From: Stenomitos frigidus ULC18
Lineage (GTDB): Bacteria; Cyanobacteriota; Cyanobacteriia; Leptolyngbyales; Leptolyngbyaceae
NCBI RefSeq assembly: GCF_003003795.1
Contig: NZ_PVWK01000155.1
Span: 1-37,044 of the forward strand
DNA: 37,044 bases
Reading direction: 5' to 3'
Below the pieces are notes generated by a model. The model was not told the origin of the DNA. It did no database searches and saw only the letters and a list, made by a program, of their open reading frames with translations. Below, piece after piece: positions 1 to 34,696 of the stretch. Both the position numbers and the translations under genes were made by a program. Every line of letters starts with the position of its first letter. Position 1 is the stretch's first letter.

Positions 1-235
1 GCTGCACCTCCAAATCGTTGAAATCGATACCTCCATCTAACTTTACATACCGGAGCTTTTCAAGCCTGATCTACTTAGCAATGCTGAGCGTTTGTTAATC
101 GCTTTCTCTTCAAAAACTAAAATGCAGTCGCTTCTGATTAAGTACGACTGCATGACTACATGTAATTTGAATATGCTTACTGAAACGTGAATCTCGACTT
201 TGTCCGAGAGGATAGCGCCACGAGTTAGGAGGTTT
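1..235. other. Array-distal flank, probable CAST right-end region
   Basis: This stretch follows the leader-distal end of the CRISPR array, where type V-K transposons carry their right end. I see no complete gene. On the minus strand a frame without stops but also without a usable start runs off the left edge (bases 1-69), encoding residues such as LEKLRYVKLDGGIDF; it could be a truncated flanking gene, but 23 codons are too few to tell. A terminator-like hairpin lies at 112-153, and a short TCTCG/CGAGA inverted repeat at 192-209. I could not recognise TnsB-binding repeats or a terminal TGT/ACA end, so the exact transposon boundary is not assigned. Confidence 0.4.
112..153 (-). terminator. Terminator-like hairpin after the CRISPR array
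   Basis: Read on the minus strand, ATGCAGTCG (153-145) pairs perfectly with CGACTGCAT (130-122) around a 14-nt loop and is followed by TTTAGTTTTT (121-112). The array is transcribed in this direction, so the hairpin is well placed to end the pre-crRNA. The stem is 9 bp and only moderately GC-rich, so its strength is uncertain. Confidence 0.55.
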
Positions 236-789
236 CTTTCAACTCGCCCCTTGCTAAAAGGGCTGTTGCGACAGTAGTTCCACTAGCAGCGTCAGTCCGG
301 CTGGGAGGCTTTCAACCTATCTCTCGCTGGAAAGGCGATCGCGACTTGAGCCGCAAGAGTTCTTACAACAAAACGCAAGCTTTCAACCCACCTCTCGTTG
401 GAAAGGCGATCGCGACACCGACTCATTCAGTGCGATCGCATAGCGCCAAGGCTTTCAATCCGCCTCTTGCTAAAAAGGCGATCGCGACCGTGCATCGCCT
501 AAAGCCGCGTTAGTGGGGGTGAACAAAGCTTTCAATCCGCCTCTTGCTAAAAAGGCGATCGCGACTCCAGGCCAAATTGAGCCACATACTCAAAGGCTGT
601 CTTTCAATCCGCCTCTTGCTAAAAAGGCGATCGCGACCCAGGAACACCGTACTTCCAGATGACAGCAATAGGAGCCTTTCAACCCGCCTCTTGCTGGAAA
701 GGCGATCGCGACTCCGCATGGTTTGATAAATCGTGTTTGACATCTAATAGTCCTTTCAACCCGCCTCTTGCTGGAAAGGCGATCGCGAC
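236..789 (-). CRISPR. Type V-K CRISPR array, 8 repeats and 7 spacers
   Basis: Eight 37-nt repeats lie at 236-272, 309-345, 380-416, 452-488, 529-565, 601-637, 676-712 and 753-789. Spacers are 36, 34, 35, 40, 35, 38 and 40 nt in plus-strand order. On the minus strand, the sense set by cas12k and the tracrRNA, the repeat starts GTCGCGATCGCC and ends GGCGGGTTGAAAG; the GGGTTGAAAG end is the hallmark of V-K repeats. The repeats fall into subtypes: two identical leader-proximal copies with CCAGCAAGAGG, three with TTAGCAAGAGG, two with further changes, and a strongly degenerate leader-distal copy (236-272) lacking the GCGATCGC core. The repeats sit next to the tracrRNA on the side expected for the leader. 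Spacer targets cannot be determined from sequence alone. Confidence 0.97.
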
Positions 790-1192: not shown

Positions 1193-1221
1193 TTTATACA
1201 GTACAAATGTTCTAATTACAA
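1193..1221 (-). promoter_or_regulatory. tracrRNA promoter
   Basis: On the minus strand a -35 element TTGTAA (1221-1216) and a -10 element TATAAA (1198-1193) are separated by exactly 17 nt. It lies immediately after the cas12k stop codon and about 7 nt before the inferred tracrRNA start. The shared 18-bp operator fills the -35/-10 spacer, so a bound repressor would block polymerase directly. Confidence 0.7.
1198..1215 (-). promoter_or_regulatory. Operator copy 1, in the tracrRNA promoter
   Basis: The minus strand reads TTAGAACATTTGTACTGT, an imperfect dyad built around CATTTGTACT. The same ten bases occur at the cas12k start (3153-3170) and before a small gene at 28238-28255. About 0.07 occurrences of a given 10-mer would be expected by chance in both strands of this window. 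V-K CASTs are known to use MerR- or Arc-type repressors on cas12k and tracrRNA promoters; the protein binding here is not identified. Confidence 0.65.
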
Positions 1222-1228
1222 GCAGCCT

Positions 1229-3142
1229 TTATTTTCGTGCTTGGTAGGCTGCGATCGCCAACCCTTTAGCTCTCTCTTGCGGCGTGCCTGTAAACGACTG
1301 CTTGGCTGTCTCAACTGCAATACCGATCTGAGCCGCCTGACTCTGAATGGCTTGGCTGAGTTGAGCATAGCTCCAACGATGCACACTCGACCGATAACTG
1401 AGCGCATACTGGCGCTGTCGTTCGACAGAACCGAGAATTTTTTGTTCTGCTCTAGCTTGCACTTCGCTCTGGATGATTTCTCGGAGGTCACCAACATCAG
1501 GTAAGACAATACTGCTGACCTGGTATTGTTGCGCGATCGCTACGATGGCTCCTGCGATCAAGCGATCGATGTACTCGCCCAAGTTTGACTCACCGAATTG
1601 ATTGGGTGCATTCTTGGACTGATTGTTATGCCGCTGATGGGCATTCCGCTGCTGACGGAGGCGAGATCGGTTCAGGAGTCTATAATTCTCTCCTAAAAGC
1701 TGCCGAAGGCTGCGATAAGTGATTGCTTTGCCAGTTTGAATATTGACAATTGCAAGCGTAGCGGGTTTGTCTAACCCGTAGCTGATACCAGCAAGCAGCG
1801 AAGGTTGTCCCTGATAGAGTGGATGACTTGGACGAGGATAAGCATGATTGAGTAGTGCCAGCGTTTTTTCACGTTTTTGAATAAACGCTTCCTGTTTTGC
1901 ATTGAGCTTGCCTTTGGCTTTCGTGCCAGCAATCACTTTTGTATAAGTGGCAGCTTTCTCCTGACGCACCTGATCGGTGCCTTCGGTCGTCCAAAGGCGA
2001 GTCTCTACAACGCAAGCTAAAGAGAGTCGATGGACGTTCCACGGATCGCCTTGATGTTTGCCCGCCTGCCAAGCAAGGCGTCCAGAGCGGAGGGTAAATA
2101 GGCTGCTTGAGAGCTGACCCTTACTGGCTTTTTTGGCCTCCTGATCCTCTAAAAACCGCTTGAACCAGTGAAGTTGCCTTTGGTCGCAGTAAACCTCAAA
2201 CGTGTGTTCGCCCAGACCATTGAAGCTGACGCATAGCCTTCCCTTCTCGTTGAGAAACCAGCGAAGGTCTTCATTCGTTTCATAGTTGACTGGAAAGGGC
2301 AGTATTGCAGCCTCAGTCAATAAGCTGGCTTGCCAGTCTGCCGCTTCCGTTTCATCCTGAGGAACACACTTCGCTGACTGCTCTAAGGCTTTTAACCAGT
2401 TGTGCCACGACAAATCCCTTCCTTTAGGGAGTCTTGTACGCTGAAGCGTATGCATGAGCCGTTCTAACCGGATTTCTGTTTTGCGGCGACGTTTAGCAAA
2501 CTTTTTGGCATCTTCAGGCTTGTCCGGTATCTTGCTGCCATTTTTGAGCAGGTAGGCGATCGCGCATCGCGTCAAAACATCGTCTACGGAGTCGTACAAC
2601 TTGAAAAGCTCATTAGGAATGTTGTTCTTCTTTGGCTCAAGTGTTTGTGTCGGTTGCTTCTGGTTGCGAGACTTTTTAGGTTTAGACTGACCATTGAGTA
2701 GCGTTTGGGATTGTATCTGAGCCAGTATTGCTTCAGCCTGCACTTTCAAAGCATCTAGGTCACTACCACTGGCTTCTGTTAGCTCATCGTCACTTTTGAG
2801 CATGGCGAGCCAACGGGTCTGACCCGCAATTTTGTTTCTGACGCGCTTGCGAAGGGCTAACCAGGATTTGTAGATGCGATGCACGAGGGCGATCGCAGAG
2901 CTATAGAATCGTCCTGGTTGGCCTGCAAATTGTGAGTCTTCCTTCAACTTCTCGCAGAACTGTTTAACGATCGCCACTGAGAGGTTGCCTGAGTGGCACC
3001 ATTCCTCGAAGTGATCGTCTTGAGCAACTTGTTTCAGTAGTGTATTAACGAGAGGAGTGTACTTTTCTGCCATCAGGTGCCAGAGATAGCGACGAGTGTC
3101 TTCTGTAGCAACCAATCTACACTCAATAGTTTTTTGGCTCAT
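1229..3142 (-). CDS. cas12k: Cas12k, type V-K CRISPR effector
   Basis: This 637-aa protein is the RNA-guided, nuclease-dead target-recognition subunit of V-K CRISPR-associated transposons. It follows the remembered ShCas12k sequence over its full length, including KSWLALRKRVRNKIAGQTRWL near residue 100 (in part), ISYLLKNG-type and KFAKRRRKTEIRLERL motifs, RLCVSFNGLGEHTFEVYC, QLHWFKRFLEDQ and HRWSYAQLSQAIQSQAAQ. The RuvC-I segment reads GISYGLDKPATLAIV (from residue 452), with Ser where catalytic Cas12 proteins have the first Asp, and RuvC-II reads IVLPDVGDLREIIQSE without the catalytic Glu, consistent with lost cleavage. It guides TnsC/TniQ/TnsB integration in known systems, none of which are in the window. 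There is no visible Shine-Dalgarno; the operator and a possible -10 abut the start codon. It lies 91 nt after mrr. Confidence 0.97.
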   Translation of the reverse strand: MSQKTIECRLVATEDTRRYLWHLMAEKYTPLVNTLLKQVAQDDHFEEWCHSGNLSVAIVKQFCEKLKEDSQFAGQPGRFYSSAIALVHRIYKSWLALRKRVRNKIAGQTRWLAMLKSDDELTEASGSDLDALKVQAEAILAQIQSQTLLNGQSKPKKSRNQKQPTQTLEPKKNNIPNELFKLYDSVDDVLTRCAIAYLLKNGSKIPDKPEDAKKFAKRRRKTEIRLERLMHTLQRTRLPKGRDLSWHNWLKALEQSAKCVPQDETEAADWQASLLTEAAILPFPVNYETNEDLRWFLNEKGRLCVSFNGLGEHTFEVYCDQRQLHWFKRFLEDQEAKKASKGQLSSSLFTLRSGRLAWQAGKHQGDPWNVHRLSLACVVETRLWTTEGTDQVRQEKAATYTKVIAGTKAKGKLNAKQEAFIQKREKTLALLNHAYPRPSHPLYQGQPSLLAGISYGLDKPATLAIVNIQTGKAITYRSLRQLLGENYRLLNRSRLRQQRNAHQRHNNQSKNAPNQFGESNLGEYIDRLIAGAIVAIAQQYQVSSIVLPDVGDLREIIQSEVQARAEQKILGSVERQRQYALSYRSSVHRWSYAQLSQAIQSQAAQIGIAVETAKQSFTGTPQERAKGLAIAAYQARK

Positions 3143-3152
3143 TGCGAATAAA

Positions 3153-3170
3153 TTAGTACAAATGAACTAA
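3153..3170 (-). promoter_or_regulatory. Operator copy 2, at the cas12k start
   Basis: The plus strand reads TTAGTACAAATGAACTAA, whose outer five bases are a perfect dyad (TTAGT/ACTAA). It ends 11 bases before the cas12k start codon. On the minus strand a weak -10 candidate TAATTT (3155-3150) directly overlaps its edge, so transcription would begin at about 3143, essentially at the ATG. No convincing -35 is present; TTGACA at 3229-3224 is too far from this -10. Confidence 0.65.
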
Positions 3171-3233
3171 ATGATAGGGCAATTTGCTCCAGTAAGCTAC
3201 ATTGAGTGAAAAATCGTCTTGCGTGTCAAGCTT

Positions 3234-4157
3234 CTAGAAATCAACGTCGGCAAAGAAGTCTTCGTCGAGGCGCTTGAGGTGAAAGGTTTCTTTGATGCTG
3301 ACACCAACATCGTGCTCGATCATAAATTGAGTCAGCTTCTGACCGTCAATCAGGATGATTTTGCTGTCGCGTAGTTGGGCGGCGTAGGCGATCGCCTGCT
3401 GAGTGTAGGTGGAGGTGGTGATAAATACGCCTTTGCGGGCACCAACGCCTGCTAACGCCCCTTGAAAGGCTTGAATCTTTTCTCTGCCGATCGAATTCTC
3501 CCAGCGTTTGGCTTGGATGTAGATCACATCCAGCCCCAACTTGTCTTCTTTGATAGTGCCGTCGATGCCGCCATCGGGACCACGGGGAACGCCTTCGACA
3601 TCTTTGAGGCTACCGCCATAACCCATCGCGTGGAGCAGCCTTAAGACCAACCCCTCAAAGTGTTCAGGAGCGAGTTGTTTAACTTTGTCGAGTAGTTCAT
3701 CCCGCAGTTCAGGATTGAGGATGCCAATCGCTTTGCTAATGGTCTCTTCGGGGGTTGTGGTGGAGGCTGGTGTCGCGTTGGGAGTGGTGGCAAGGGGTTC
3801 TTCAGTAGCAGACCGTTCTCTGAACTCGCGGAATTCATCAAAGCGTTGGAGATAGAGGTTATCGATCGCAGTTGGGTTTTCCGCCAGCACATCCCTTCCC
3901 CGCTGCGTAATTTGGACGGAACCGCGCTTGGGTCGAGAAAGCAAACCGGCTTTACGAAGATAGGTGTTGGCCCACCCGATGCGATTATCAAAAACGGACT
4001 GTTGACCATTGGGGAGTCTGATGGCTCGTTGTTCTGGGGTGATACCGAATTGGTGCGCGAGTTGTTCGCGCAGTGTGGCGATGGCGTGCACTCGCTCATC
4101 CTCAGCTGCGAGCTTGAGCAGTGGCAACATGAACTGATCGTAGGTGGGTAAGCTCAT
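3234..4157 (-). CDS. mrr: Mrr-like restriction endonuclease (type IV)
   Basis: This 307-aa protein has the Mrr layout. The N-terminal winged-helix region (about residues 1-95: [17 protein letters not shown]) matches Mrr_N. A C-terminal PD-(D/E)xK nuclease domain (about 165-290) carries [26 protein letters not shown] and IYIQAKRW, giving the D...QxK active site. Members cut modified DNA. An acidic, Thr/Pro-rich linker (about 120-145) joins the domains. The start codon overlaps the hsdR stop as ATGA, so the gene is probably translationally coupled to hsdR, and it lies directly upstream of cas12k on the same strand. Its role as a type IV partner of the type I system is inferred from context. Confidence 0.92.
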
Positions 4158-17774: not shown

Positions 17775-20700
17775 ATGGCTCAGCTAGAGGAATTGCTGCA
17801 ACAGTGCACCGTCCAGATCATCATCCCCGGTCAGAATGGCTGGGGCACAGGCTTTTTTGTTGCTCCAGGTTTGATCCTTACCTGTGCTCATGTCGTCAAA
17901 GCGCTGAATGTTGGTGCTACTGCTCAGATTCGCTGGCAGCAGCAGTCAGACTTTGCCACCGCAGAACTCCTTCAATGCGAGTCTCAACTCGATCTGGCGT
18001 TGTTGCAATTCACGCCAACCAATGCTGATTTGCTCTGCGTCTATCTGGATGGAGCACTTCAGACAGGGCAGGAGCTATATTTCTTTGGCTACCCGGATCA
18101 GGACTTTGATCATGGCTGTCCGGTGACGGGAAGTTGTGAGGGCTTCACCGGCGATGTGCCGCCATTGATTAAGTTCAAGCAGGCTCAGGTGCGACCGGGG
18201 ATGAGTGGGTCTGCCCTACTAAACCGACACACAGGAAAGGTGTGTGGGATGGTGAAGTTTACGCGCGATCGCTCCATCGATTTAGGTGGTGGTGCCATTC
18301 CCACCCGTGTGATTTTGCAGCAGTTTCCCCAACTACGAGAACTTCAGCAGGAGTTTCATCAACGCGATCGACGCTGGAGTGACCTGTTGCCAACTGCAAC
18401 GCACCCAAATAAGAAGCTTAATGCTAAGGCAGTTGAACCGTATTTGCGATCGCTGCTTGCAGACGAGAAGTATCAGCAGCAGTGGGGATTCTACACGCTA
18501 ACGGATGTGATCAGTAAGCTTCAGGAACCGAAAGCGAAAACAGTACTGGACATTGGGCTGATGGTGCAGTTGATGAAGCCCAAGCCGTCAGATGCTGCCC
18601 GCAATCCAGGGCAGGAAATGTCAGAAAAAACGGAACGGCTGCCTGTTCTGGATGGCATTCGCAAGTATGCGGCGGAACACGTCCTGCTGATGGGAAAACC
18701 TGGATCAGGGAAAACCACAGCGCTGCTCCGATTGCTGATAGACGAAACGAGGCAAGCTCTGACCGATTCGTCCGCCAAAATCCCAGTGTTAGTAGAGCTG
18801 AGATATTTGGATGCAGAGCGACCGTCTGTACTGGAACGGCTTGAAGCCTTTCTGCGAAGCCACAACCTATCCATAGACGAAGCCACCCTCAAAACTGCTT
18901 TGGCAGAGGGCCAGTTACTGCTGCTGATCGATGGTGTGAATGAGTTGCCCTCAGAGGCAGCCCGACGAGCTGTAGCTAGCTTTCGGCTGGACTATCCACA
19001 AACGCCGATGATTTTCACCACGCGGGATGTGGCGATCGGCGGTGATCTGAGCATTGAGAAAAAGCTAGAGATGCAACCCCTGAGTGAGCAGCAGATGCGG
19101 CAGTTTGTGCAAGCGTATTTGCCACAGCAGGGAGAGCCGATGTTGCGGCAGTTGAAGGGGCGACTGCGGGAGGTGGGACAAACGCCGTTGCTGTTGTGGA
19201 TGCTCTGTGAAGTGTTTCAGGGACTGAAGCAACTGCCCTCTAGTCTGGGGCTGCTGTTTCGCTGGTTTACTGGGGAATATGACAAGCTGAAACAGGATGT
19301 GCCTGTTTCGGATGGGTTACGACACTGGCAGTCGGAATTATTGCAACGTCTGGCGTTTACTATGATGCAGGCAGAAGAGCCAACGGAATTACGGGTGGCG
19401 ATATCGCAACAGGAAGCCGAGACTGTGCTGGCAGAGTTTTTGCACGACAAGGTTGATTACCCCACACAACGAGCCAAGGAATGGCTGGAAGATCTACTAG
19501 AACATCATCTCCTCCAACGAACTAGCCAGAACCAACTGGAGTTTCACCACCAATTGCTTCAGGAATATTACGCGGCAGAAGCTCTGCTGAAACGCCTACC
19601 TCATGTCAGCGGTGAGCAACTGCAACGAGATTACCTCAACTATCTGAAGTGGACAGAACCTATAGCATTGATGTTGGCATTGGTGAAGCAAGAGGCACAA
19701 GCAGTGCGGGTGGTGAAACTGGCTCTAGACGTAGACTGGATACTTGGGGCAAAATTGGCAGGAGCGGTCAAACCAGAGTTGCAGTTAAAAACGGTTGAGG
19801 TAATTCAGAATGCAGAGATACTTCCATCGTTGAAGTCGTGGGTTCTAGGTCACACTCGATCAGAATTTGCTATTGCGCTTCCTCTCATGGATCTCAAACA
19901 TCTAAATCCTCGGATGCGTTGGTTAGCAGTTGATTCATTAAGATTGATTGGCTCGGAGAAGGCTATTCCAGAGCTTCTTAAACTATTAGATGAAGACCCA
20001 GAAAGCTCTGTTTGTAGCTTGTCTGCTTATGCATTAGGTGAAATTGGTTCTAAATCTGCAGTTTTGGGCTTAATTAAAGCATTGAAAAGCCAAAGATGTC
20101 GAATAGATGTAGTCAATGCCCTTAAACAAATCGGCTCTGAAACTGTTATTCAAGAATTATTAGATGTTGTTGAAGATCCCTACTATCATTACCGCTCCAG
20201 CCTATCAGAGGCAATTGTTCAGATTATTTCGGAAACAACTATTCCAACAGTCACGCCTAGGCTACTCAAAGCGCTTGAGCACCCTGATAGTCGGGTTCGC
20301 CTCACTGTTGGTCAAATTCTCAACCAAATAGATTCTAAAACGGCTCTTCCAGATTTACTGCGAGCGATTGAACATCCTGATGCTCGCATACGATGGAACG
20401 GTATCAAGGCATTTGGTGGTTGCAGCGTGGAGCCTACTGTCACAACATTGCTTGAGGCATACGAAACTCAGCAAAATGCTTATATTCGTAGAAGTATTGT
20501 TACAGCATTAGGGCAAATCGGTTCAGAGGCAACAATTCCAGGACTAGTTAGAGCATTGGCAGACCCCAATGCTTCTGTTCGTTGGAGTGCAGTTGAAGCA
20601 TTGGGACATATTAATTCAGAATTAGTTATACCCTTGTTGATACAGGCTTTAAGAGACCAAGATGCTCAAGTTTGCAGGAATGCCGCGGCTGTGCTTGGAA

Positions 20701-22305: not shown

Positions 22306-23031
22306 ATGCAACTTCAAGCATCACTATCCTTGCCACCGACGCAACCAACCGCATTCAGCCCAGACGGACGCATCGGTCTAGCACTCACTCCCACTCATCC
22401 AGGAGCAGTTTTCGATCGTATGTCACCTCCTTTGATTCCCCATGAACAGGAATGTAGCCGCATTCCGCCTGCCATTCCTAAACCGTCCCATCTCACTCAA
22501 GCGTTGTATCAAACAGGCCACCAACAAGCGCTACATGATTTTGCCATCAGCGATCTGCTTCAAAGACTCAAAACCTACTCCGATCGCAGCTTCGACACCA
22601 CTTGGGTCGCGCTCAAAACTCAGGAAGCCGAAACTCTTGCGGCTGTCCTCATTCAAACCCTGACTGCTAATCTCAACGGCAACCTCCTCGCGGTCTATCT
22701 GGATGCCATCCGCTCTAAAACGCTCGATGCCTCTAAGCCCCTTTCTAGCTTGCACCTCCCACCGCCCACAACCGACTTACCCACCACCTTTCCTGATGTT
22801 GAAATGCCCCGGTTTCTCTACGGCGACCGCCTCCGCTGGCTTTCTAATGGTGAACCGACCGACTGGGGCATCGCGATCGGCAGATTCTACAGCTTTGCTC
22901 CCCACCGTTGTCGCTGGCAGTGGTGCTACCTCATCTGGCTCGACGCCGATTCTCCGAGTGGTGCCTGGGTCAAAGCGGACAGCGCCTGGGAAGACGACCT
23001 CGAACCTCTGGAAACGGAGAAAACTCTATGA
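22306..23031 (+). CDS. Hypothetical protein, first of element gene run
   Basis: I do not recognise this 241-aa protein. The N-terminus is proline-rich and low in complexity (LPPTQPTAFSPDG), a helical middle follows (HDFAISDLLQRLKTYSDRSF), and the C-terminal third contains a compact, aromatic domain (FLYGDRLRWLSNGEPTDWG, then RWQWCYLIWLD). The start is uncertain: no clear ribosome-binding site precedes ATG 22306, and an ATG at 22420 (MSPPLIPHEQE) would remove the proline-rich part. Its stop overlaps the next start as ATGA, so the HTH protein is coupled to it. Confidence 0.65.
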   Translation: MQLQASLSLPPTQPTAFSPDGRIGLALTPTHPGAVFDRMSPPLIPHEQECSRIPPAIPKPSHLTQALYQTGHQQALHDFAISDLLQRLKTYSDRSFDTTWVALKTQEAETLAAVLIQTLTANLNGNLLAVYLDAIRSKTLDASKPLSSLHLPPPTTDLPTTFPDVEMPRFLYGDRLRWLSNGEPTDWGIAIGRFYSFAPHRCRWQWCYLIWLDADSPSGAWVKADSAWEDDLEPLETEKTL

Positions 23032-23366
23032 ATCCTCGCCCTTTGACTGACCGAGAACAGCACCTGATTGACCGCTACAGCTACTGCCAGCTTGGCATGA
23101 CACCGCAGACTTTCTATGCGAAGTGGCACGTCAGCCAGGAAGCGATCGCCGCGATCTGTTCCCGTTCCACTTCTACCGTGCGCTGCTGGTTTCGTCGCGG
23201 TCGCAGCTATCGTCGCCCCACCGCGATCGACCTCCGCCACCTCGCCCTGATGGACTTTCTGCTGGAACACTTTGAGCAAATGCCCCCAGACCTCGGGACG
23301 GCACTCTGTCCACCGCAGCAGTCCAAAACCGAAGCCCAACGCCGCCAAAAGTCAATACCACCCTGA
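23028..23366 (+). CDS. Helix-turn-helix domain protein
   Basis: The 112-aa product has a clear helix-turn-helix: FYAKWHVSQEAIAAICSRST then STVRCWFRRG, resembling the N-terminal DNA-binding region of transposase-like or sigma-like regulators. The segment after it (YRRPTAIDLRHLALMDFLLE) is helical and the tail is charged. It overlaps the preceding gene by four bases. In this context it is likely a regulator of the nested element; a role in its replication or excision is possible. Confidence 0.75.
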   Translation: MNPRPLTDREQHLIDRYSYCQLGMTPQTFYAKWHVSQEAIAAICSRSTSTVRCWFRRGRSYRRPTAIDLRHLALMDFLLEHFEQMPPDLGTALCPPQQSKTEAQRRQKSIPP

Positions 23367-26461: not shown

Positions 26462-26462
26462 T
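26389..26462. repeat. Two adjacent perfect inverted repeats
   Basis: The first has 9-bp arms (26389-26397 and 26403-26411), the second 10-bp arms (26424-26433 and 26453-26462). They are only 12 nt apart and lie between the end of the element gene run and the tyrosine recombinase. Paired dyads next to a recombinase gene are a common layout for attachment-site regions, but no crossover site could be confirmed because the second att copy was not found. Confidence 0.7.
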
Positions 26463-27352
26463 CATTTCTTAGTTAGCGATTCAAACGCTTTCTTGGCGAC
26501 CGTTTCGGCTCGTTGTGACGTTACCTTTTGGTAGCGCAAAGTTGTCTGAATGTTCTGGTGTCCCATTAACGCTCGCAGTTCCTCAATGCCCATCAAGCCT
26601 ACTCGTTCGGTGGCGAAGGTGTGGCGGAGGTCGTGAATCCGAATGCCTTTCAGGGTTGGTTCCTGAGGGATGATGTCAGTCCAGTCTTGATGCGCCGTGC
26701 GGTAGCTCAAACGACTGACTTCGAGCGTAAAAGGTTGTTGCGCGGTAAAAAGAGCAGCACTGCTGCAATGCCTTTGATAGCGACAATAGCGTTCTAATGC
26801 TTTTGCGGCATCTTCACTGTAGAAACACCAGCGTTGCTTGTTGCCTTTGCCCAGCACCTGAAACTTCCGTTGTTGCAGATTCAAGTCTTGGAGGTCGAGC
26901 GCCAGGATTTCCGCAATTCTTGCGCCTGTATGATGCAGGAGATGCACCAGGGCATTCAGTCGTAAATCAGAGGCGACGGCACGATACAACACCATAAGCT
27001 GTTCCGGTGTCAGGTAACGAATGACGGTATCGTTCCGATGTTCACCTTTTGCTTGGTCGGGTTTACGGCGCTTCAGTTGGGCGATCGGGTTGGCTTTCAG
27101 ATACCCCTGCTCCACAGCGAAGTTGAACAGCGCCTGGATAATGGCTTGATGGCGATGATGGGTGGTGTAAGAAATCTCAGTTAGGTTGTTGAGATAGTCC
27201 TGTAATACCTGTCGAGTCAGGATTTCAATGGGCGATCGCCCATATTCTTGCAGTAAAGGCATCAGTGTGGATTCATAGGAACGCAAGGTCGTATGAGCCA
27301 AACCGGGGCGCTGCAAAAAGGCGGTTGTGACTGTAGCGAGTGAAGTAGTCAT
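26462..27352 (-). CDS. Tyrosine recombinase / integrase
   Basis: The 296-aa protein has the N-terminal SAM-like domain (about 1-85: LATVTTAFLQRP, RQVLQDYLNNLTE) and a C-terminal catalytic domain. The expected residues are Arg near 145 in HHTGARIAEIL, His-x-x-Arg near 240 in IHDLRHTFATE, His in ALMGHQNIQTT and the nucleophile Tyr in LRYQKV. It resembles XerC/D-like and plasmid or island integrases of cyanobacteria. It is divergent from the HTH/zinc-ribbon gene across 83 nt, so the latter may repress it. It is the best candidate for mobilising the 22-27 kb segment as an element separate from the CAST. Confidence 0.93.
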   Translation of the reverse strand: MTTSLATVTTAFLQRPGLAHTTLRSYESTLMPLLQEYGRSPIEILTRQVLQDYLNNLTEISYTTHHRHQAIIQALFNFAVEQGYLKANPIAQLKRRKPDQAKGEHRNDTVIRYLTPEQLMVLYRAVASDLRLNALVHLLHHTGARIAEILALDLQDLNLQQRKFQVLGKGNKQRWCFYSEDAAKALERYCRYQRHCSSAALFTAQQPFTLEVSRLSYRTAHQDWTDIIPQEPTLKGIRIHDLRHTFATERVGLMGIEELRALMGHQNIQTTLRYQKVTSQRAETVAKKAFESLTKK

Positions 27353-27435: not shown

Positions 27436-27912
27436 ATGCCGCTTTTACAACAGGAACTGCCTCCAAACCCTGAAGAAACCCTGGCAAATTACGTCAGGCG
27501 GGTGCGGATGAGCCTGGGTCTGAGCCAGAAGGAACTGGCAGAGCGCGCAGGGCTTCACTTACAGAGTGTAGGCAAAATTGAGCGTGGGCAGACGACTCGG
27601 TTGAAGCAAGTGCCCAAAAGTGGCTTGGCTTATGCGCTGGGACTCCCTGTGGAATACCTGGATGCGGTCTGCAAGGGAGTGGCGGTAGAAGCGATCGCGA
27701 CTCTCAAATTCTGCTCTGAATGCTGGGTGCCGGGAACACCACCCGACCCCATGTGGACACACCCACGCGCCAAGCATTGCTTCGCCTGTGGAAGTCAGTT
27801 ACGCGATTGCTGTGGGAATTGCCAGGAACCGATCGCTTCGCTCAAATTCCGCTTTTGCCCTTACTGTGGTCAAGCCTATAAGAGTAATGTTCCTAAATTC
27901 TCTTCTAGGTAA
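27436..27912 (+). CDS. Xre-family HTH protein with zinc-ribbon tail
   Basis: This 158-aa protein has an Xre-type helix-turn-helix (MSLGLSQKELAERAGLHLQS then VGKIERGQTT, about residues 26-55). Its C-terminal half has four CxxC-type knuckles: CSEC, CFAC, CGNC and CPYC, enough for two zinc ribbons. The HTH part fits a repressor of the divergent recombinase. Zinc-ribbon tails often contact RNA polymerase or nucleic acid. A likely terminator follows at 27956. Confidence 0.88.
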   Translation: MPLLQQELPPNPEETLANYVRRVRMSLGLSQKELAERAGLHLQSVGKIERGQTTRLKQVPKSGLAYALGLPVEYLDAVCKGVAVEAIATLKFCSECWVPGTPPDPMWTHPRAKHCFACGSQLRDCCGNCQEPIASLKFRFCPYCGQAYKSNVPKFSSR

Positions 27913-28237
27913 TCTATTGACTTAGACCGCTTGTAAAAATAACTTAGGCAGCTTTCCTGCAAAAACTACTACGGGGAATACCATTGCAGGTTTTTCTTTA
28001 GCGAAGCACCAGTGAATTCTTCGATAGCAACCTCCAGATTCAGCCTCTGAATGAACGTTTCCGCTCCGCTGCAAGCTTTCGCTACACCTCACACGCTTTA
28101 CGACTCGGTTCCACTCAGCACCCGGTCCGACAGCTGTGCTTCATGCGCCTCAAGCAGCGGGGAATTGACCTGTAGCGATTAAAAAAATTCAAGCAGCCTA
28201 CTTCAGCAAGATAATCCAGGAAAAAGCATAAGCATTT
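27913..28237. other. Gap with terminator and an unrecognised open stretch
   Basis: After the HTH gene there is a terminator-like hairpin, then a frame open from the TAG at about 27999 to TAG near 28173 without a start codon, encoding LNERFRSAASFRYTSHALRL and ending LKQRGIDL. This could be the 3' end of a decayed gene; I do not recognise it. The operator and promoter for the next small gene begin at 28238. Confidence 0.35.
27956..27999 (+). terminator. Terminator after the HTH/zinc-ribbon gene
   Basis: CCTGCAA (27956-27962) pairs with TTGCAGG (27984-27990) and is followed directly by TTTTTCTTT. The loop is long (21 nt), so strength may be moderate. Confidence 0.5.
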
Positions 28238-28255
28238 ATAATACATTTGTACTAT
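28238..28255 (+). promoter_or_regulatory. Operator copy 3, upstream of the small-gene pair
   Basis: ATAATACATTTGTACTAT repeats the CATTTGTACT core found at the tracrRNA and cas12k sites in the same orientation relative to transcription. TATATT (28253-28258) overlaps its right edge as a probable -10, placing the start about 8 nt before the ATG at 28273. Consensus over the three sites is WTARWWCATTTGTACTRW. Confidence 0.65.
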
Positions 28256-28272
28256 ATTGCTGGCAAAATTAA

Positions 28273-28530
28273 ATGACCCAAAGCCCTAAAGTTCCTGAAA
28301 TCATTCAAATGCCACCGAAAGAAGGACTGTTGTGTACAGTTCTGGATCTTTTCTACATGGCTAAGCAAAAAGAGTTTCCCTTAAAAGACTTGAAATCGAC
28401 CCTGGATAGCCTTCAATCATTTCTCCATAGTGCTGAGGGTCAATTTAGAGAAGATAAAGACTTATCCGATTCGATAAAACAGGCACGAGAATCTGCCACT
28501 GAAGCCAGTAAGAAGTTGAAATCAACCTGA
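28273..28530 (+). CDS. Small helical protein, CAST-operator controlled
   Basis: The 85-aa protein is not of a family I recognise. After a short N-terminus (MTQSPKVPEIIQMPPKEG) it is almost entirely helical and charged: FPLKDLKSTLDSLQSFLHSA and SDSIKQARESATEASKKL. It has no helix-turn-helix or catalytic motif. The C-terminal half aligns with that of the next gene (FP..LK..L..L...L...F....DL), so the two are tandem paralogues. No Shine-Dalgarno is visible; the leader is predicted to be only a few nucleotides, as for cas12k. Expression under the same operator as cas12k suggests a function tied to the transposon or its guide RNA, which is inference. Confidence 0.7.
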   Translation: MTQSPKVPEIIQMPPKEGLLCTVLDLFYMAKQKEFPLKDLKSTLDSLQSFLHSAEGQFREDKDLSDSIKQARESATEASKKLKST

Positions 28531-28596
28531 TGAAATTCCTGATAGGCATTCTTTTCTCCGAAGAAGTGAGTATAAATTCTCGCTTTAGGAGGTCGC

Positions 28597-28839
28597 ATGG
28601 TAACATCTTGTCCTCTAGACCAACAGTGTCCTCTAGCGAAGCAAAAGAACCCTTCAGGAATCTGCCCTTTAGGAAAGGACTGCCAAAAGTTTCCTAAAGG
28701 AAGGCTTAAGGGCGTGTTGAGGGATTTAGACGGCTATCTGGGTGCTTCTATCAACTCGTTCAGCAATAATGAAGATTTACTATATGCCCTCAACCAGCTT
28801 CAAAATGACATATCACTGGTGCTCTCTAGATTGAACTAG
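28597..28839 (+). CDS. Small Cys-rich protein, paralogue of upstream gene
   Basis: This 80-aa protein begins with a Cys/Pro-rich region: CPLDQQC (5-11) and CPLGKDC (23-29), together four cysteines in two C-x5-C pairs suited to binding a metal ion. The rest, FPKGRLKGVLRDLDGYLGAS and LLYALNQLQNDISLVLSRL, is helical and aligns with the upstream 85-aa protein. AGGAGG sits 5 nt before the ATG, a strong ribosome-binding site. It ends 83 nt from the converging caspase gene. No known family is recognised; a small adaptor or regulator is possible. Confidence 0.75.
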   Translation: MVTSCPLDQQCPLAKQKNPSGICPLGKDCQKFPKGRLKGVLRDLDGYLGASINSFSNNEDLLYALNQLQNDISLVLSRLN

Positions 28840-28922: not shown

Positions 28923-31697
28923 CTAAATGGATGAATTGAGATAATTAATTAAATAGTCAAGATAAAGATTAAGCTCATCGATAGCGTCTCTAGACGGTTC
29001 TTCAAAAGGCAACTCCTGCTTAAGAAAACTAAACGCCCGAGCATACAAATCTGCAGGTATAGATGATGGAGGCTTAAGTTCTGCGTCCCTCGGTTGCATA
29101 GACAGAAGGCTGCTATATAACCAGGTTATATATTTATTAAGTTCTTGAGAACTCAAGTAGAGTTCATTTTGTTCAGAAGTATGAGCAAAGATATATCTCA
29201 AAATAATTTCAGTTAGTCTTTCCTGATTGTCAATCAACCACTCTGCCATCAGCTGAGATGACTGCCTTCTTGTCTCAAAGAGTTGAAGTTCTTCTACAAA
29301 GCCGCCTATTTTTTGGTTGAAATCAGTTGGATCAGGTGTATTAGCATTAAATATTGATGCCAAACCCATAGCCTCACCAGATATATTTGAATTGGAGAGA
29401 GAAGGAGTGCTAGTTTCAGATATGTCCTGTGCAGTACTGGTTTGAGTAGTCTGCTGTATTCGATTAACTACTTTTGTCTGTAAATTCTGAAGCTGTTCTT
29501 TAATTTGACTAACTTCCCGCTCGTAGGAAGTTTTTTGTACTTCATGCTTATAACTTAGTTGGTAAAATTCTTGTTCCTCAGAACTTAGATAGAATTTAAG
29601 ATCCAAACGATTTTTATGAATCTGAGTCAGTAAGCCACCTGAAATCAAGAAATTGTCGTCGCAACCGTGGATTCTCCAAACCTTGAAATCATCATGAATG
29701 CGATCGCGCAATCGCCTTACTTCCCGATCGTCTTTGCGCCATTCGGCAAACCGTATCCATCCATCTAGCAGAGCTTCGTGCACTAAATCTACACAGGAAC
29801 CTGAGTTGGCTTGGTCTTGCCCTGTTACTAGCAAGCGCCCCCGCACCAATCCATCGTCATCCTCAAGTAATCCACGTAACAAGCCTTGAGCATCGAGATC
29901 TGCGTCTGCGATTGCCACTAGCTCATGTTTAGGGCAGCGCTGGCGGGTGTCCTTTTCTGCTTCTCCGGTTCGCACTAGCCGCAGAAAGACTCGTTTAATC
30001 CATGCCTGCTCCTGTTCAGTTCGTGTTTCTATTGGGGTGTCACGCTCAAAATCTCGAAAGTGGTAGACCTGCTCAGCATGGAGATTGAGTGCTCCGGTCA
30101 AGCCGCCCAGGTTTTCATACTGTGCCAGGGTCAGCAGTTTTTGTTCCGTGTCTCGTTGCTCCCATAGTTTAGTCAAGACAAATTCTAATAAGGGCAGGAA
30201 ACCTGGCTCTTTTCCCACATCGTCCTGAATCTTGAAGAGCAAGCGTTCCTCAACGCCGTATCCCTGCCGTTTTGCAGGTTCCACGATCGCATCTCGTAGA
30301 TCAGCGCCAGTTAATGGCGGCATGAGTACCCATTGAGATTGAATCAGTTGGTGTAAAGCCGGATAGCGCAGACAAGGTTCCAGGAAGTCTGCCCGCATCG
30401 TGATGACCACTGCCAAACGTGTATCAGGGAGATTGACCACCTGAGTCAGCAGGTCAATGAAGCGCTGGCGATCGCCTTCATTTGGGCAGAGCGTAAACAC
30501 TTCCTCAAACTGATCCACCACCAATAGAAAACGCTCTGGTGTTTCCTGATCGGCGGTAGTCGTTGCATCAGAGAGCCGCTTGACCAGGGCAGGCAGCGGA
30601 TCGGGATCAGTTTTAATGAGCTGATGGAGCTGCTGGATGTCGCGGTTGGAGCGAGGAAAAGACGGTTCAAAGACGGCTCTCAGTGCTGCCAGTGGGTCGA
30701 ATCCTGGCTTAATCGGGTCAAGTATCTGCCAACCCGTTGCCGCTAGCCAGGGCATCAAGCCAGCTCGCACGATTGAAGATTTGCCACTGCCCGAAGCGCC
30801 AATCACCGGGACGAACGGTTGTTGCTCTAACCGTTGCCGGATGTCTTCAACCGTTCGCTGCCGCCCAAAGAAGAAGGCTTGTTGCTCTGCGGTGAACGCT
30901 TGCAAGCCTTGATAGGGGCAGATGGGTTCTCCCGCTGCATCCACGATCGCCGTGAGCCTCGTCGGCTGCGGTTGATGGTTCATGAGCGTAATTAAGCCGC
31001 CATAGCCCATGCGGAGTGGTTCTTGTCCACTGCCTCTTAGCTCTCTGGCAACAGATTCAAACAAGCGATCGCCCGTCACCTGTCCATCTTCGTTGGCATT
31101 TGCCTGAGATAGCCCTCCCAGCAAGGCACCAGTGAAAATGCTGTGCTGCTCACGCTTGATGGCGTATGCCTGCTCAAAGCCTCGGCAAGCGGTGATCAGG
31201 TAATAGTCCTTATGGGTACTGAAAGCGGTAAAGGTCTTTTCAACCAGACTCCGTTCCAAAAAATCACCGCTGTGGCAGGAGTCAAACAGCATCACCAGGC
31301 TACTTAACTGTGATTCCTGAATCAGGTCATTTAGGCTATCGAGGGGCACTGCTCGCCGTGCTTCGATCACTTGCTTGCCTTCGAGGGCGATCGCGGTATC
31401 CGACGTTGCCAGGTAAGCTCTGGGTTTACCAACCACCGGATCAACCACGGGAATACCATGCCCAGTGAAGTAAAGCAACACGTCGTTCTGGGTAGCCTGC
31501 TCCAGTAGCAAGGTGCGTAATGCCTGAATCAGCTTGGCATTCGTGATGGCTCCTTTCAAGACAGTCACGGACTGAAAGTCACCCCCTTGCTCCAGCACCG
31601 CCGCTACCGCTGCCGCATCGCTGGCAGGTTTACTCAAAGGCTTGAGAGGACTCTGGTATTCTGAGATGCCAATCACAAGGGCATAGCGACGAGCCAT
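28923..31697 (-). CDS. Caspase-like protease - nSTAND NTPase - coiled coil protein
   Basis: From ATG 31697 (MARRYALVIGISEYQSPLKP) the protein is 924 aa; the frame is open further upstream but the caspase fold begins here. The C14 protease dyad is H80 in YFTGHG and C141 in FDSCHSG. An nSTAND1-type NTPase follows (PYQGLQAFTAEQQAFFFGRQ, Walker A GASGSGKSS at residue 300, Walker B LLVVDQFEEVF). The C-terminal third has a coiled coil (about 690-745: YEREVSQIKEQLQNLQTKV) and a helical domain without recognisable repeats. It is divergent from a second caspase-nSTAND gene across 155 nt. A prokaryotic immune or cell-suicide receptor is the expected role. Confidence 0.92.
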   Translation of the reverse strand: MARRYALVIGISEYQSPLKPLSKPASDAAAVAAVLEQGGDFQSVTVLKGAITNAKLIQALRTLLLEQATQNDVLLYFTGHGIPVVDPVVGKPRAYLATSDTAIALEGKQVIEARRAVPLDSLNDLIQESQLSSLVMLFDSCHSGDFLERSLVEKTFTAFSTHKDYYLITACRGFEQAYAIKREQHSIFTGALLGGLSQANANEDGQVTGDRLFESVARELRGSGQEPLRMGYGGLITLMNHQPQPTRLTAIVDAAGEPICPYQGLQAFTAEQQAFFFGRQRTVEDIRQRLEQQPFVPVIGASGSGKSSIVRAGLMPWLAATGWQILDPIKPGFDPLAALRAVFEPSFPRSNRDIQQLHQLIKTDPDPLPALVKRLSDATTTADQETPERFLLVVDQFEEVFTLCPNEGDRQRFIDLLTQVVNLPDTRLAVVITMRADFLEPCLRYPALHQLIQSQWVLMPPLTGADLRDAIVEPAKRQGYGVEERLLFKIQDDVGKEPGFLPLLEFVLTKLWEQRDTEQKLLTLAQYENLGGLTGALNLHAEQVYHFRDFERDTPIETRTEQEQAWIKRVFLRLVRTGEAEKDTRQRCPKHELVAIADADLDAQGLLRGLLEDDDGLVRGRLLVTGQDQANSGSCVDLVHEALLDGWIRFAEWRKDDREVRRLRDRIHDDFKVWRIHGCDDNFLISGGLLTQIHKNRLDLKFYLSSEEQEFYQLSYKHEVQKTSYEREVSQIKEQLQNLQTKVVNRIQQTTQTSTAQDISETSTPSLSNSNISGEAMGLASIFNANTPDPTDFNQKIGGFVEELQLFETRRQSSQLMAEWLIDNQERLTEIILRYIFAHTSEQNELYLSSQELNKYITWLYSSLLSMQPRDAELKPPSSIPADLYARAFSFLKQELPFEEPSRDAIDELNLYLDYLINYLNSSI

Positions 31698-31852
31698 ACA
31701 GTTACGTTTTCCTAGTGACAGAGGACGATGCGTGCCATACACAGACCACGCCAACGGGGCTGACCGAAGCTGGTATTGAAATTGCACCAGACGAACGGGT
31801 GCTTGATTTGAGACTATCTTAGTAGAGAATTACCAAAGGGCAGTGCTTGCAG

Positions 31853-34696
31853 ATGGCTCGTTACGCGCTGGTGATTGGAATTGGTGAAAATCAGCCCCCG
31901 TTCAAAGCGTTGACGAAAACGGTGGGGGATGCGACGGCGGTCGCGCAGGTGTTACAGGAGTATGGCGACTTTCGGTTGGAGGTGTTGACCCAACCCAGGC
32001 AGTTGCAATATAGGGCACTGGTGACTGCCATTCAGACCTTTGTGCAGCAACGGGCAGCGGGCGATGAGGCACTAATTTACTACACAGGGCATGGCTTCCC
32101 GCTGGTGAAGGACTTTGGTGAGATGGAGGCGTTTCTGGCTTCGGTGGATTGCAGCGTGACGCTGGAGGGTGGTCAGATTACAGCTCAGCGCAATGGGTTA
32201 TCGCTGGCAAGTTTGAATCGGTTGGTGGCAAAAGCACGGTTCAGTAATCTGGTGGTGCTGCTGGATTGTTGTCACAGTGGGTATTTGCTGGAGGATGACC
32301 TGTTACGGCAGACCTTTGCTGACTTTAGCCAGAAGGATTACTGGCTGATGACTGCCTGCCGCAGTTTTGAGCAAGCCTGGGCAAAGAAGCTTGACCCGCA
32401 TAGTGTGTTTACCGGAGCGATTCTGGCGGGGTTGAGCCGCGATCGCGCCGATGAGCGTGGCGTGATTACGGCAGGCAGTTTGTTTGAGTTTGTGCAACGC
32501 ACTCTGCGACGAGAACAGCAGGAAGTGTTGCAACTGGCAGTGGGTCGTCCGATCGAGTTGCTCCGGTTTCCCTTGGAACAGGCACCCGTCGAGGTGGATG
32601 AGAGCTTGGAGCCGTATCAGGGCTTGAATGCCTTCACCACCGAAACCGCGCCATTTTTCTTTGGGCGGGAGGATGAGATTCAAACTCTGGTGCAGCAGGT
32701 GCATACCCATTGCTTTGTGCCGCTGATTGGCGCATCGGGCAGTGGCAAATCTTCGCTGGTGCGGGCGGGGTTGGTGCCGCGTTTGCAGGAGTTGGGCTGG
32801 CGGGTGCTGGCACCGATCAAGCCAGGAAGCAACCCGATCGCAGAGTTGAAGCTGGCATTGCGAACGGTCTTTGCTGAGAGTGAGATTGCCGGGGTGTATG
32901 AGCGCATCGATCGCCAGGATTTGGTGACCGTCGCCACGAGCCTGCCAGAACCAGAGCGCTGGTTGCTGGTGGTGGATCAGTTTGAGGAAGTGTTTACCCT
33001 GTGTCCCGATCGCGCCCTACAAGCTGCTTTCATCCAGATGCTGACCAGTGTGATGCAGCAGGTGACTCCCAGGCTGACGATCGTTACCACTATGCGAGCC
33101 GATTTTGTCGAACCGTGGTTAGCCTATGGTGCTTTAACTCAGGCGATTCAGTCCCAGGCGGTGTTTTTGGGCGCGATGACCCGCGAGGGACTGGAAGCGG
33201 CGATTATCCAGCCTGCAAAACGGCTGCAATATCGGGTGCAAGACCGCTTGTTGGCAGAGATGCTGCACGATGTCGAAACGGAAGCGAACAGTTTGCCCCT
33301 GTTGCAGTTTGCCTTACAGCAATTGTGGGAGCAACGAGACAGGAAGCAGCGGGAATTGACCTATGCCGCCTATCAGCAGTTGGGCGGTGTGGCGGGAGCG
33401 TTGAACCAGAAGGCAGAGGCGATTTATCAGCGCCTGGAAGCAGCAGGACAGGGGGACTGGGTGCGGCGAGTGTTGCTGAAACTGGTGCGAACTGGAGAAG
33501 GCACGAAGGACACTCGCCAACGCAGGCTGAAGGCAGAATTGCTAGAAATGGGCACAAATGCTGTTACCTGTCAGACCATTGAATCAGTGCTCACGGCGCT
33601 GGTGGATGGACGCTTGTTGGTCAGCGACCGGGTGAATGACCAGGATGTGATTGACCTCAGCCATGAGGCATTGATCCAGCGTTGGCAGCGGCTGGCAACC
33701 TGGCGAGAGCAAGACCGGGATCTACGACGACTAGTGGACAGAATTGAAGATGCCCAACGCGATTGGTTACAGCAGGGCAAAAAACGGCAGGATTTGCTGC
33801 AAGGACGACTGCTCAAGGATGCCCGACGCTTGCTGAAGCAACGGTTAGAAGCTGTAGCCGCAACCAAAACCTTTATTCAGAAAAGCCTACGCTGGCGAAG
33901 AACACAACTGGTAGCAACGCTACTGGTTCCAGCCCTGGTTCTGGGAATCCCCGCCGAGTATTTCTGGCGAGAAGAATCAATCAAACGGGATTATGCTCGG
34001 ATAGAAAGTAGTGTGGGTGATCAGGGAGAGCGTGTGGCGGTACTATCGCTTGTAGGCGGTTGTTGGGCAACTGAACAATATGGTTCGATGCCAGACTATT
34101 TTAGAGAACGGGTGTTTGGCAATTGTCGATCACTTCAGTCAGCAAAGCTAGAAAAAGCCGAACTCATCCGTGCTAATTTGAGTAAGGCTGACCTTTACGA
34201 GGTGAGTTTGAGCGGTGCCGAACTTGGTTTTGCGAATTTAAGCGATGCCGAACTTAGTTATGCAAATTTGAGCCGAGCCAACTTCTACAACACAAATCTG
34301 AGCGATGCCAACTTCCTTGAGGCGAATTTGAGCAGTGCTAAACTTTTCATTGCAGATTTAAGCAGAGCCAGCTTCACCAGGACGAATTTGAGCGGTGCCG
34401 ACCTAAAAAATGCGAATTTGAGTAGTGCCAACTTCCTCGATGCAAATTTGAGGGGTGCCCAGCTTATAGGTGCGAATTTGAGCGGTGCTGGGCTTCATGG
34501 TGCGAATTTGGAGAATGTTCAATTCGGATGTTCTGAATTACCTGACGCTGGGTACGGAAAGATAAAGATGCGGCGTAACTGCCCTAATCTAAAAGACATC
34601 AAATGGGATAAAGATACTAAATGGAAAGGCATAAAAGGTTGGGATCAGGTGAAGAATATTCCCCCAGCGTTGAAGCAACAGTTGGGGTTGCGGTAG
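31853..34696 (+). CDS. Caspase-like protease - nSTAND NTPase - pentapeptide repeat protein
   Basis: From ATG 31853 this is 947 aa; a TTG two codons upstream is less likely. The caspase dyad is H80 in YYTGHG and C140 in LDCCHSG. The nSTAND1 domain has PYQGLNAFTTETAPFFFGRE, Walker A GASGSGKSS at residue 293 and Walker B WLLVVDQFEEVF. A hydrophobic segment (QLVATLLVPALVLGIPAEYF, about 686-706) suggests a membrane anchor. About 24 pentapeptide repeats of the A(N/D)LS type follow (residues about 770-890: ANLSKADL, ANLSRANF, ANLSGAGL). The sensor therefore sits on the far side of a membrane segment, unlike its divergent partner. Confidence 0.92.
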   Translation: MARYALVIGIGENQPPFKALTKTVGDATAVAQVLQEYGDFRLEVLTQPRQLQYRALVTAIQTFVQQRAAGDEALIYYTGHGFPLVKDFGEMEAFLASVDCSVTLEGGQITAQRNGLSLASLNRLVAKARFSNLVVLLDCCHSGYLLEDDLLRQTFADFSQKDYWLMTACRSFEQAWAKKLDPHSVFTGAILAGLSRDRADERGVITAGSLFEFVQRTLRREQQEVLQLAVGRPIELLRFPLEQAPVEVDESLEPYQGLNAFTTETAPFFFGREDEIQTLVQQVHTHCFVPLIGASGSGKSSLVRAGLVPRLQELGWRVLAPIKPGSNPIAELKLALRTVFAESEIAGVYERIDRQDLVTVATSLPEPERWLLVVDQFEEVFTLCPDRALQAAFIQMLTSVMQQVTPRLTIVTTMRADFVEPWLAYGALTQAIQSQAVFLGAMTREGLEAAIIQPAKRLQYRVQDRLLAEMLHDVETEANSLPLLQFALQQLWEQRDRKQRELTYAAYQQLGGVAGALNQKAEAIYQRLEAAGQGDWVRRVLLKLVRTGEGTKDTRQRRLKAELLEMGTNAVTCQTIESVLTALVDGRLLVSDRVNDQDVIDLSHEALIQRWQRLATWREQDRDLRRLVDRIEDAQRDWLQQGKKRQDLLQGRLLKDARRLLKQRLEAVAATKTFIQKSLRWRRTQLVATLLVPALVLGIPAEYFWREESIKRDYARIESSVGDQGERVAVLSLVGGCWATEQYGSMPDYFRERVFGNCRSLQSAKLEKAELIRANLSKADLYEVSLSGAELGFANLSDAELSYANLSRANFYNTNLSDANFLEANLSSAKLFIADLSRASFTRTNLSGADLKNANLSSANFLDANLRGAQLIGANLSGAGLHGANLENVQFGCSELPDAGYGKIKMRRNCPNLKDIKWDKDTKWKGIKGWDQVKNIPPALKQQLGLR

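Follow-up and report, generated by a model that had tools for sequence, protein, structure and literature searches.

Two small genes, here called ORF1 and ORF2, lie in a single locus of the cyanobacterium Stenomitos frigidus ULC18 on the same contig as the cas12k gene of a V-K CAST, and the first of them carries at its promoter the operator that is found at the cas12k promoter. What are these genes, which protein would read the operator, and does the pair serve the element or only travel in it? Our answer, to which we give an even chance, is that ORF1-ORF2 are orphan damage-induced accessory genes in the variable cargo of the V-K CAST, with a LexA-type box over their promoter as over those of the element.

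The V-K CAST regulators described in the portion of PMC9938897 considered here are CvkR, a MerR protein encoded divergently to cas12k whose site is AnnACATnATGTnnT, and two Arc-type repressors, Arc_1 and Arc_2. Control by these proteins resembles the arrangement reported below in that one operator lies at both the cas12k and the tnsB promoters. Unlike the CvkR case, the operator here is a 14-bp LexA-type box, cas12k lacks an adjoining regulator of that kind, and a cargo operon is also covered; unlike the CvkR and Arc genes, ORF1-ORF2 lie 25 kb from cas12k and are not its divergent neighbours. The main text of PMC9938897 mentions neither LexA nor SOS, and we found no report of LexA or SOS control of V-K CAST or Cas12k in the open-access literature.

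Two small paralogous genes

The window, by which we mean the whole stretch of DNA analysed, spans one entire contig, C54, of 37,044 bases; the genome totals 6.98 Mb in 167 contigs. The genes and the array that the argument needs first are these:

231..789, no strand assigned: CRISPR array of eight repeats with a spacing of 71-77 nt
1229-3142, minus strand: cas12k, 637 aa (NCBIfam V_Cas12k, 921 bits)
28273-28530, plus strand: ORF1, 85 aa, ATG start, predicted helices at residues 15-32, 37-57 and 62-83, without a recognisable Shine-Dalgarno sequence
28597-28839, plus strand: ORF2, 80 aa, ATG start with AGGAGG upstream, predicted helices at residues 34-54 and 59-79
28923-31787, minus strand: caspase gene, converging on ORF2

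A preliminary description of this DNA had placed tandem small paralogues at 28273-28839, and both the coordinates and the relationship proved right. ORF1 and ORF2 are read from the plus strand with a gap of 66 nt, and their C-terminal halves are 24% identical over 51 aa (E 6e-05 in one pairwise comparison). The Smith-Waterman score of ORF1 against ORF2 was equalled by 1 of 5000 shuffles of ORF2. AlphaFold2 models from single sequences, of modest confidence (mean pLDDT 71.9 for ORF1 and 65.8 for ORF2; pTM 0.53 and 0.41), place matching helix pairs in the two proteins, residues 37-57/62-83 of ORF1 corresponding to 34-54/59-79 of ORF2. The four-cysteine N-terminal region that had been ascribed to the second protein only is indeed confined to it: cysteines 5, 11, 23 and 29 (C5-x5-C11-x11-C23-x5-C29) stand N-terminal to the helices of ORF2, where both CPLDQQC and CPLGKDC are found, and ORF1 is without the four. 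ORF1 and ORF2 are real, orphan, paralogous small genes.

That the two proteins belong to no recognised family was borne out in Pfam, NCBIfam, PHROGs, PADLOC and PDB sequences, the libraries searched. In Pfam, ORF1 scored 21.5 bits against Rx_N (PF18052), below the curated cut-off of 27.7, and ORF2 scored 15.7 bits against Nab2p_Zf1, below the cut-off of 25. NCBIfam returned no match to either protein, and neither there nor in Pfam did a MerR or ribbon-helix-helix DNA-binding domain match them. The best PHROGs match of ORF1 was one family of unknown function (E 0.29), PADLOC gave weak matches only (E 0.006-0.02), and among PDB sequences ORF1 had four matches at E 0.36-0.68 and ORF2 none. A CCCH zinc finger of the Nab2p_Zf1 kind was rejected for ORF2, given the sub-cut-off score and the fact that C-C-C-H is impossible without histidine, of which a reading of the sequence counts none. 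ORF1 is likewise not favoured as the missing repressor of the element, no DNA-binding family having been matched.

Modelling the two proteins alone, which the preliminary description had proposed, yielded the matching helical hairpins and, as fold matches, generic helical bundles only. Foldseek returned no match at E <= 0.001 in the PDB for either model, nor in BFVD for that of ORF1. The top VIA-align hit was a designed heterodimer at Z 9.8, in a range that VIA-align itself calls common for helical bundles. Ferritin/Dps, MIT and 14-3-3 were rejected as fold relatives, Foldseek and VIA-align having given nothing more specific than such bundles.

Relatives were sought in 388 genomes of the class, 93 of which, the window's genome counted, carry cas12k. 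ORF1 found its own window and one match with three internal stops (G053, E 0.0038), and ORF2 its own window, G229 (E 9.5e-4) and G043 (E 0.0054). Against 42 genomes of the order, ORF2 gave itself and eight weak matches (E 0.022-0.075), and within their own genome the two ORFs yielded, apart from themselves, a single match (E 0.33). The weak ORF2 matches in G043, G237, G229, G105 and G073 were set down to chance, being partial, out of gene frame or within an unrelated 392-aa frame. No credible relative of either ORF was found among the 387 other cyanobacterial genomes, 92 of them carrying cas12k, a result to be read with the low sensitivity of single-sequence searches for proteins so short, which may escape them if fast-evolving. 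Searches of plasmids and of phages by tblastn gave nothing at E <= 1, and six-frame phmmer across 1.04 Mb of DNA gave no relative. A pattern-based locus search, in which ORF2 was absent from genome contigs and both ORFs from viral contigs, carries little weight, Cas12k having been missed too. Because no credible relative was found in genomes, plasmids, phages or family libraries, ORF1-ORF2 is, as judged by these searches, an orphan pair and not a conserved V-K CAST component.

A LexA-type operator at ORF1, cas12k and tnsB

The claim that ORF1 is under the same operator as cas12k was borne out. The sequence CATTTGTACTAWWTT occurs in the window with zero mismatches only at 3150-3164 (minus strand) and 28244-28258 (plus strand), that is, at these two promoters. 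The window was scored with a matrix made from 48 published LexA boxes only, from lexA, recA, ssb and uvrA promoters (training median 16.67 bits), and the three highest sites were the following:

1200..1213, no strand assigned: LexA-type box AGTACAAATGTTCT, immediately 3' of cas12k; 18.99 bits, best of the window
28240..28253, plus strand: LexA-type box AATACATTTGTACT, ORF1 promoter; 18.87 bits, second best
3155..3168, minus strand: LexA-type box, cas12k promoter; 16.35 bits, third best

The fourth site reached only 11.15 bits. None of 400 shuffled windows held three sites of at least 16 bits, and 4% held at least one. Because a matrix of published boxes puts the sites at 1200, 28240 and 3155 at the top of the window, the operator common to ORF1 and cas12k is best read, from its sequence, as a LexA-type (SOS) box. 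The box AGTACAAATGTTCT fits RGTACNNNDGTWCB exactly; this motif and AGTACWNWTGTACT are the forms given for the cyanobacterial LexA box near promoters in the portion of PMC3091678 considered here, and the operator consensus TTAGTTCATTTGTACTAA resembles both. The ORF1 box begins 33 nt before the ATG and overlaps a TATAAT-like -10 element. The box 3' of cas12k precedes the presumed tracrRNA, which would start there. That the operator might be a CvkR site was rejected, the CvkR motif being absent within 150 nt upstream of the cas12k gene of the window.

Across the genome, the related 14-mer is found with at most one mismatch at 21 places, three of them in the window contig and a fourth on contig C150. 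There it is the best site of the contig (14.98 bits), lying 19 nt before the tnsB start and ending five bases before the ATG. A looser genome-wide count of the 14-mer showed no excess (187 versus a control of 201), and one exact copy outside the CAST, on contig C27, is without a good palindrome. Against an 18-mer derived solely from cas12k and tnsB, the ORF1 site matches at 14 of 18 positions; sites of this type arise by chance at least once in 22% and at least twice in 2.7% of shuffled windows, and when only the ORF1 upstream region was shuffled, in 45 of 5000 cases.

The genome encodes LexA on contig C147 (192 bits), with a box of its own, GGTACAAGTGTTCT, at -41 of its promoter; a second lexA copy has a weak box only (9.1 bits). 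Each of the 30 lexA loci examined from the order has, in the 150 nt upstream, a site scoring 11.1-17.0 bits. The recA gene of the genome is without a box, its best site within 900 nt upstream scoring 6.5 bits; recA is without a box in some published genomes too, the portion of PMC3091678 drawn on giving sites for only part of the genomes. The case thus resembles the cyanobacterial LexA regulon in that lexA carries the box, and is unlike it in that recA does not and that the list in the same portion of PMC3091678 consists of host genes; the string 'transpos' is absent from the main text of that article.

Boxes in other V-K elements

Seventy cas12k loci were sampled, 30 from the search and 40 picked since the match reached the gene start. 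An upstream box of at least 12 bits was present at 17 of the 70 (200 permuted matrices: mean 1.02, maximum 5), leaving 53 without one, and at 13 of the 54 non-redundant loci (500 permutations: mean 0.75, maximum 5); the coding-window control at 12 bits gave 1 in 486. Directly 3' of cas12k, sites of at least 13 bits were found at 10 of the 70 loci (permuted mean 0.34, maximum 4). For tnsB, a box of 15.0-17.6 bits stands 15-21 nt upstream of the start in four of nine loci, namely that on C150 and the three next closest to it (57-74% identity); of the remainder, one (56% identity) reaches 11.5 bits at -86 and four reach 1.7-10.4 bits. The boxes recur, then, at cas12k and tnsB of other elements.

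For the cargo side, 20 stretches adjoining such cas12k genes were surveyed, which together amount to 313 kb. Only 19 sites reached at least 13.5 bits: 12 at cas12k, in loci partly chosen for having them, 3 at tnsB, 2 at a PD-(D/E)XK gene and 2 elsewhere. The ORF1 box, at 18.9 bits, exceeds all 19, the highest of which has 17.6. The preliminary description had put the pair forward as CAST-associated factors; the box common to cas12k, its 3' spot and tnsB speaks for such an association, whereas as conserved factors they find no support, with no credible relative in the 92 other cas12k genomes.

Two further genes were seen in this survey. The PD-(D/E)XK gene (PDDEXK_1, 30.2 bits; 609-1307 of stretch L162 and near 19482, in reversed coordinates, of L169) has its own box of 14.1-15.7 bits and, in some V-K elements, stands next to the divergent HTH gene. 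At 16877-17692 of L162 (G197:C1), about 0.5 kb upstream of a CAST tnsB, lies another LexA-like gene, the third (LexA_DNA_bind, Peptidase_S24), which is possibly a CAST-linked LexA copy.

The slot that holds ORF1-ORF2

The element genes of contig C150 are tnsB, tnsC, another tnsC-like gene and tniQ, the last being assigned through Pfam and the others in part through tblastn; beyond this support, the family names are those we take the genes to bear. The tnsB of C150 (408-2103) is broken into two frames, 408-1079 and 1096-2103, either through decay or through an error of assembly, and the two tnsC-like genes (2118-2930 and 2954-3787) stand after it and before tniQ. The genome contains three cas12k matches, one on C54 and two places on C80, one of these with a stop, as well as a second tnsC-tniQ pair on C149; there are therefore at least two V-K elements or remnants.

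ORF1 shares its contig with cas12k, and tnsB is on C150. In eight other loci with both genes, cas12k and tnsB are 13-31 kb apart; the 25 kb between cas12k and ORF1 fits this range, but the 33.9 kb of contig beyond the cas12k start, which hold no tnsB, speak against it. The slot of ORF1-ORF2 may well lie inside this V-K CAST. Immediately before it stand two genes:

26462-27352, minus strand: tyrosine recombinase, forming a recurrent divergent module with an XRE/double-zinc-ribbon gene
27436-27912, plus strand: XRE/double-zinc-ribbon protein, the divergent partner of the recombinase

The recombinase and XRE genes have plasmid matches in 48 and 50 records, respectively, and a Tn3-family transposase adjoins the pair in three of eight plasmid regions viewed. 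In the CAST-side DNA of two genomes of the same genus the pair is 85-88% identical, and the similarity stops at 27870-27872, before ORF1. Elsewhere the variable slot behind the pair holds a Tn3 transposase, CHAT-TPR, Hpt and nSTAND-TIR proteins and others; here it holds ORF1-ORF2. The pair resembles a resolution module of the Tn3 type that is followed by a variable slot. That ORF1-ORF2 belong to the Tn3-like module itself is not favoured, the DNA similarity ending before ORF1, and no Tn3 transposase remnant was detected in 27901-28290 by comparison with the eight plasmid regions, the one match (E 0.097) being to a non-transposase. On the other side, 28923-34696 is occupied by two caspase-nSTAND1 genes in divergent orientation, of 954 and 949 aa, of which one has pentapeptide repeats; a P-loop region common to both is inverted and about 83% identical as DNA over 65 nt. 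ORF1-ORF2 are surrounded by genes for restriction, STAND and caspase proteins.

This setting bears on a reading that we place just short of an even chance, in which ORF1-ORF2 are orphan genes of a toxin, immunity or SOS-related kind, unconnected with transposition, which either the recombinase/XRE module or a defence island carries as ordinary passengers. SOS boxes are common in mobile DNA, the content of the slot varies among plasmids and relatives, the surrounding genes are of the restriction, STAND and caspase kinds, and relatives are absent from the other cas12k genomes, all of which a passenger would lead one to expect. Against it, the ORF1 box equals or beats the cas12k and tnsB boxes in strength, and boxes of at least 13.5 bits at non-core genes are rare, 4 of the 19 in 313 kb of cargo-side DNA. 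As to functional role, passenger and modulator of the element are about as likely as each other.

Host LexA or an element-encoded repressor

The 18-mer, with at most one mismatch, is found in 78 of the 388 genomes, 47 of which have no cas12k match. In addition, a conserved host gene of 169 aa (C70:1945; L096, G039), 72% identical between this genome and one without cas12k, has a LexA-type box about 30 nt upstream in both. Because of the 47 cas12k-free genomes and this boxed host-gene ortholog, the box is taken to belong to a host regulon. The divergent neighbours of cas12k that accompany the box differ as well: among the 20 stretches, eight have an HTH gene, two (L165, L170) a MerR-type gene, and two (L155, L164) neither. 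Its presence in cas12k-free genomes, at a host gene and beside differing neighbours favours, on comparative grounds, a host protein, LexA, over the HTH protein as the binder.

The HTH protein is nonetheless an unlikely but serious candidate. In that case the box would be the site of an element-encoded repressor, a small HTH protein with the signature WFSQGEHRR encoded divergently to cas12k, and not of host LexA. Its gene is the divergent neighbour in the eight stretches just mentioned, a distant homolog lies in the window at about 23031-23366 (37% over 68 aa), and CAST elements with their own divergent regulator are known, CvkR, Arc_1 and Arc_2 being those described in the portion of PMC9938897 considered. 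The opposing evidence is that a similar box stands beside a MerR-type neighbour or neither kind, that it occurs in cas12k-free genomes and at lexA promoters, and that it fits a matrix derived from lexA, recA, ssb and uvrA. The window region 22306-23366, comprising a gene for 241 aa and the HTH gene, has counterparts in CAST-side DNA from other genomes and also on contig C149.

Lesser alternatives

Improbable, as we see it, is the most far-reaching version of LexA control, in which host LexA would be a further, undescribed V-K CAST regulator that represses tracrRNA, cas12k and tnsBC-tniQ together with a dedicated ORF1-ORF2 operon, the latter tuning RNA-guided transposition or shielding the damaged host.

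Quite improbable is the view that one or both ORFs are untranslated and that the box drives a non-coding transcript or a decayed remnant. It would account for the lack of relatives, for the missing Shine-Dalgarno sequence of ORF1 and for its G+C per codon position (0.48/0.35/0.39), which is unlike that of the neighbouring genes; it is opposed by the two open frames with a common hairpin, the ATG and AGGAGG of ORF2, the gene-like distance of the box, and the result of an Rfam search, which gave no match in the window.

The preliminary description had also offered the idea of a pair of helical adaptors for the neighbouring caspase-STAND protein, which we dismiss as very improbable: adjacency, helical folds on both sides and the sub-threshold match of ORF1 to Rx_N, a plant NLR domain, speak for it, but the caspase gene is convergent and separately transcribed, ORF1 and ORF2 resemble its C-terminal part no better than shuffles do (363 and 233 of 500, respectively, score as high), and the matrix scan of the window found no LexA box at the caspase genes.

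A model of damage-induced expression

In the damage-induced accessory reading that we prefer, ORF1 and ORF2 would share one transcript, whose promoter a LexA-type (SOS) box overlies, a similar box covering the promoters of cas12k, tnsB and, presumably, tracrRNA. LexA would bind and silence all four units, and DNA damage would release them jointly. The two proteins may pair through their common helical hairpin, and the cysteines of ORF2 may bind metal or form disulfides. Their most likely role, at the level of a guess, would be a damage-induced accessory activity during expression of the element, which modulates the transposition machinery or the damaged host cell.

Small SOS-induced proteins such as DinI, SulA, TisB and Tum are controlled by SOS boxes and often lie on mobile DNA. 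In distinction from these, ORF1-ORF2 have no library match and are tandem paralogs, one with four cysteines. Integrons, prophages and SXT-type elements are the SOS-controlled mobile elements named in the portion of PMC12452197 considered here, and the present case would resemble them in that DNA damage would release mobility genes. The same portion reports that the genes of an I-F3 CAST did not respond to mitomycin C, and for Tn7 it cites no such response; beside both, LexA control of a V-K CAST would be exceptional. In a different system, that of VchCAST in E. coli, efficiency is raised by DNA damage, as stated in the portion of PMC12757027 considered.

Significance

The switching-on of V-K CAST in nature is so far known only for CvkR-type repressors. 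Through LexA-type boxes at cas12k, at tnsB and 3' of cas12k, present in a recurrent group of elements, RNA-guided transposition would be coupled to DNA damage. If this is true, ORF1-ORF2 would be the first cargo operon on the same switch and an obvious candidate for a modulator; if it is wrong, they are ordinary orphan passengers. Should the regulatory part alone be right, it would still explain when these elements move.
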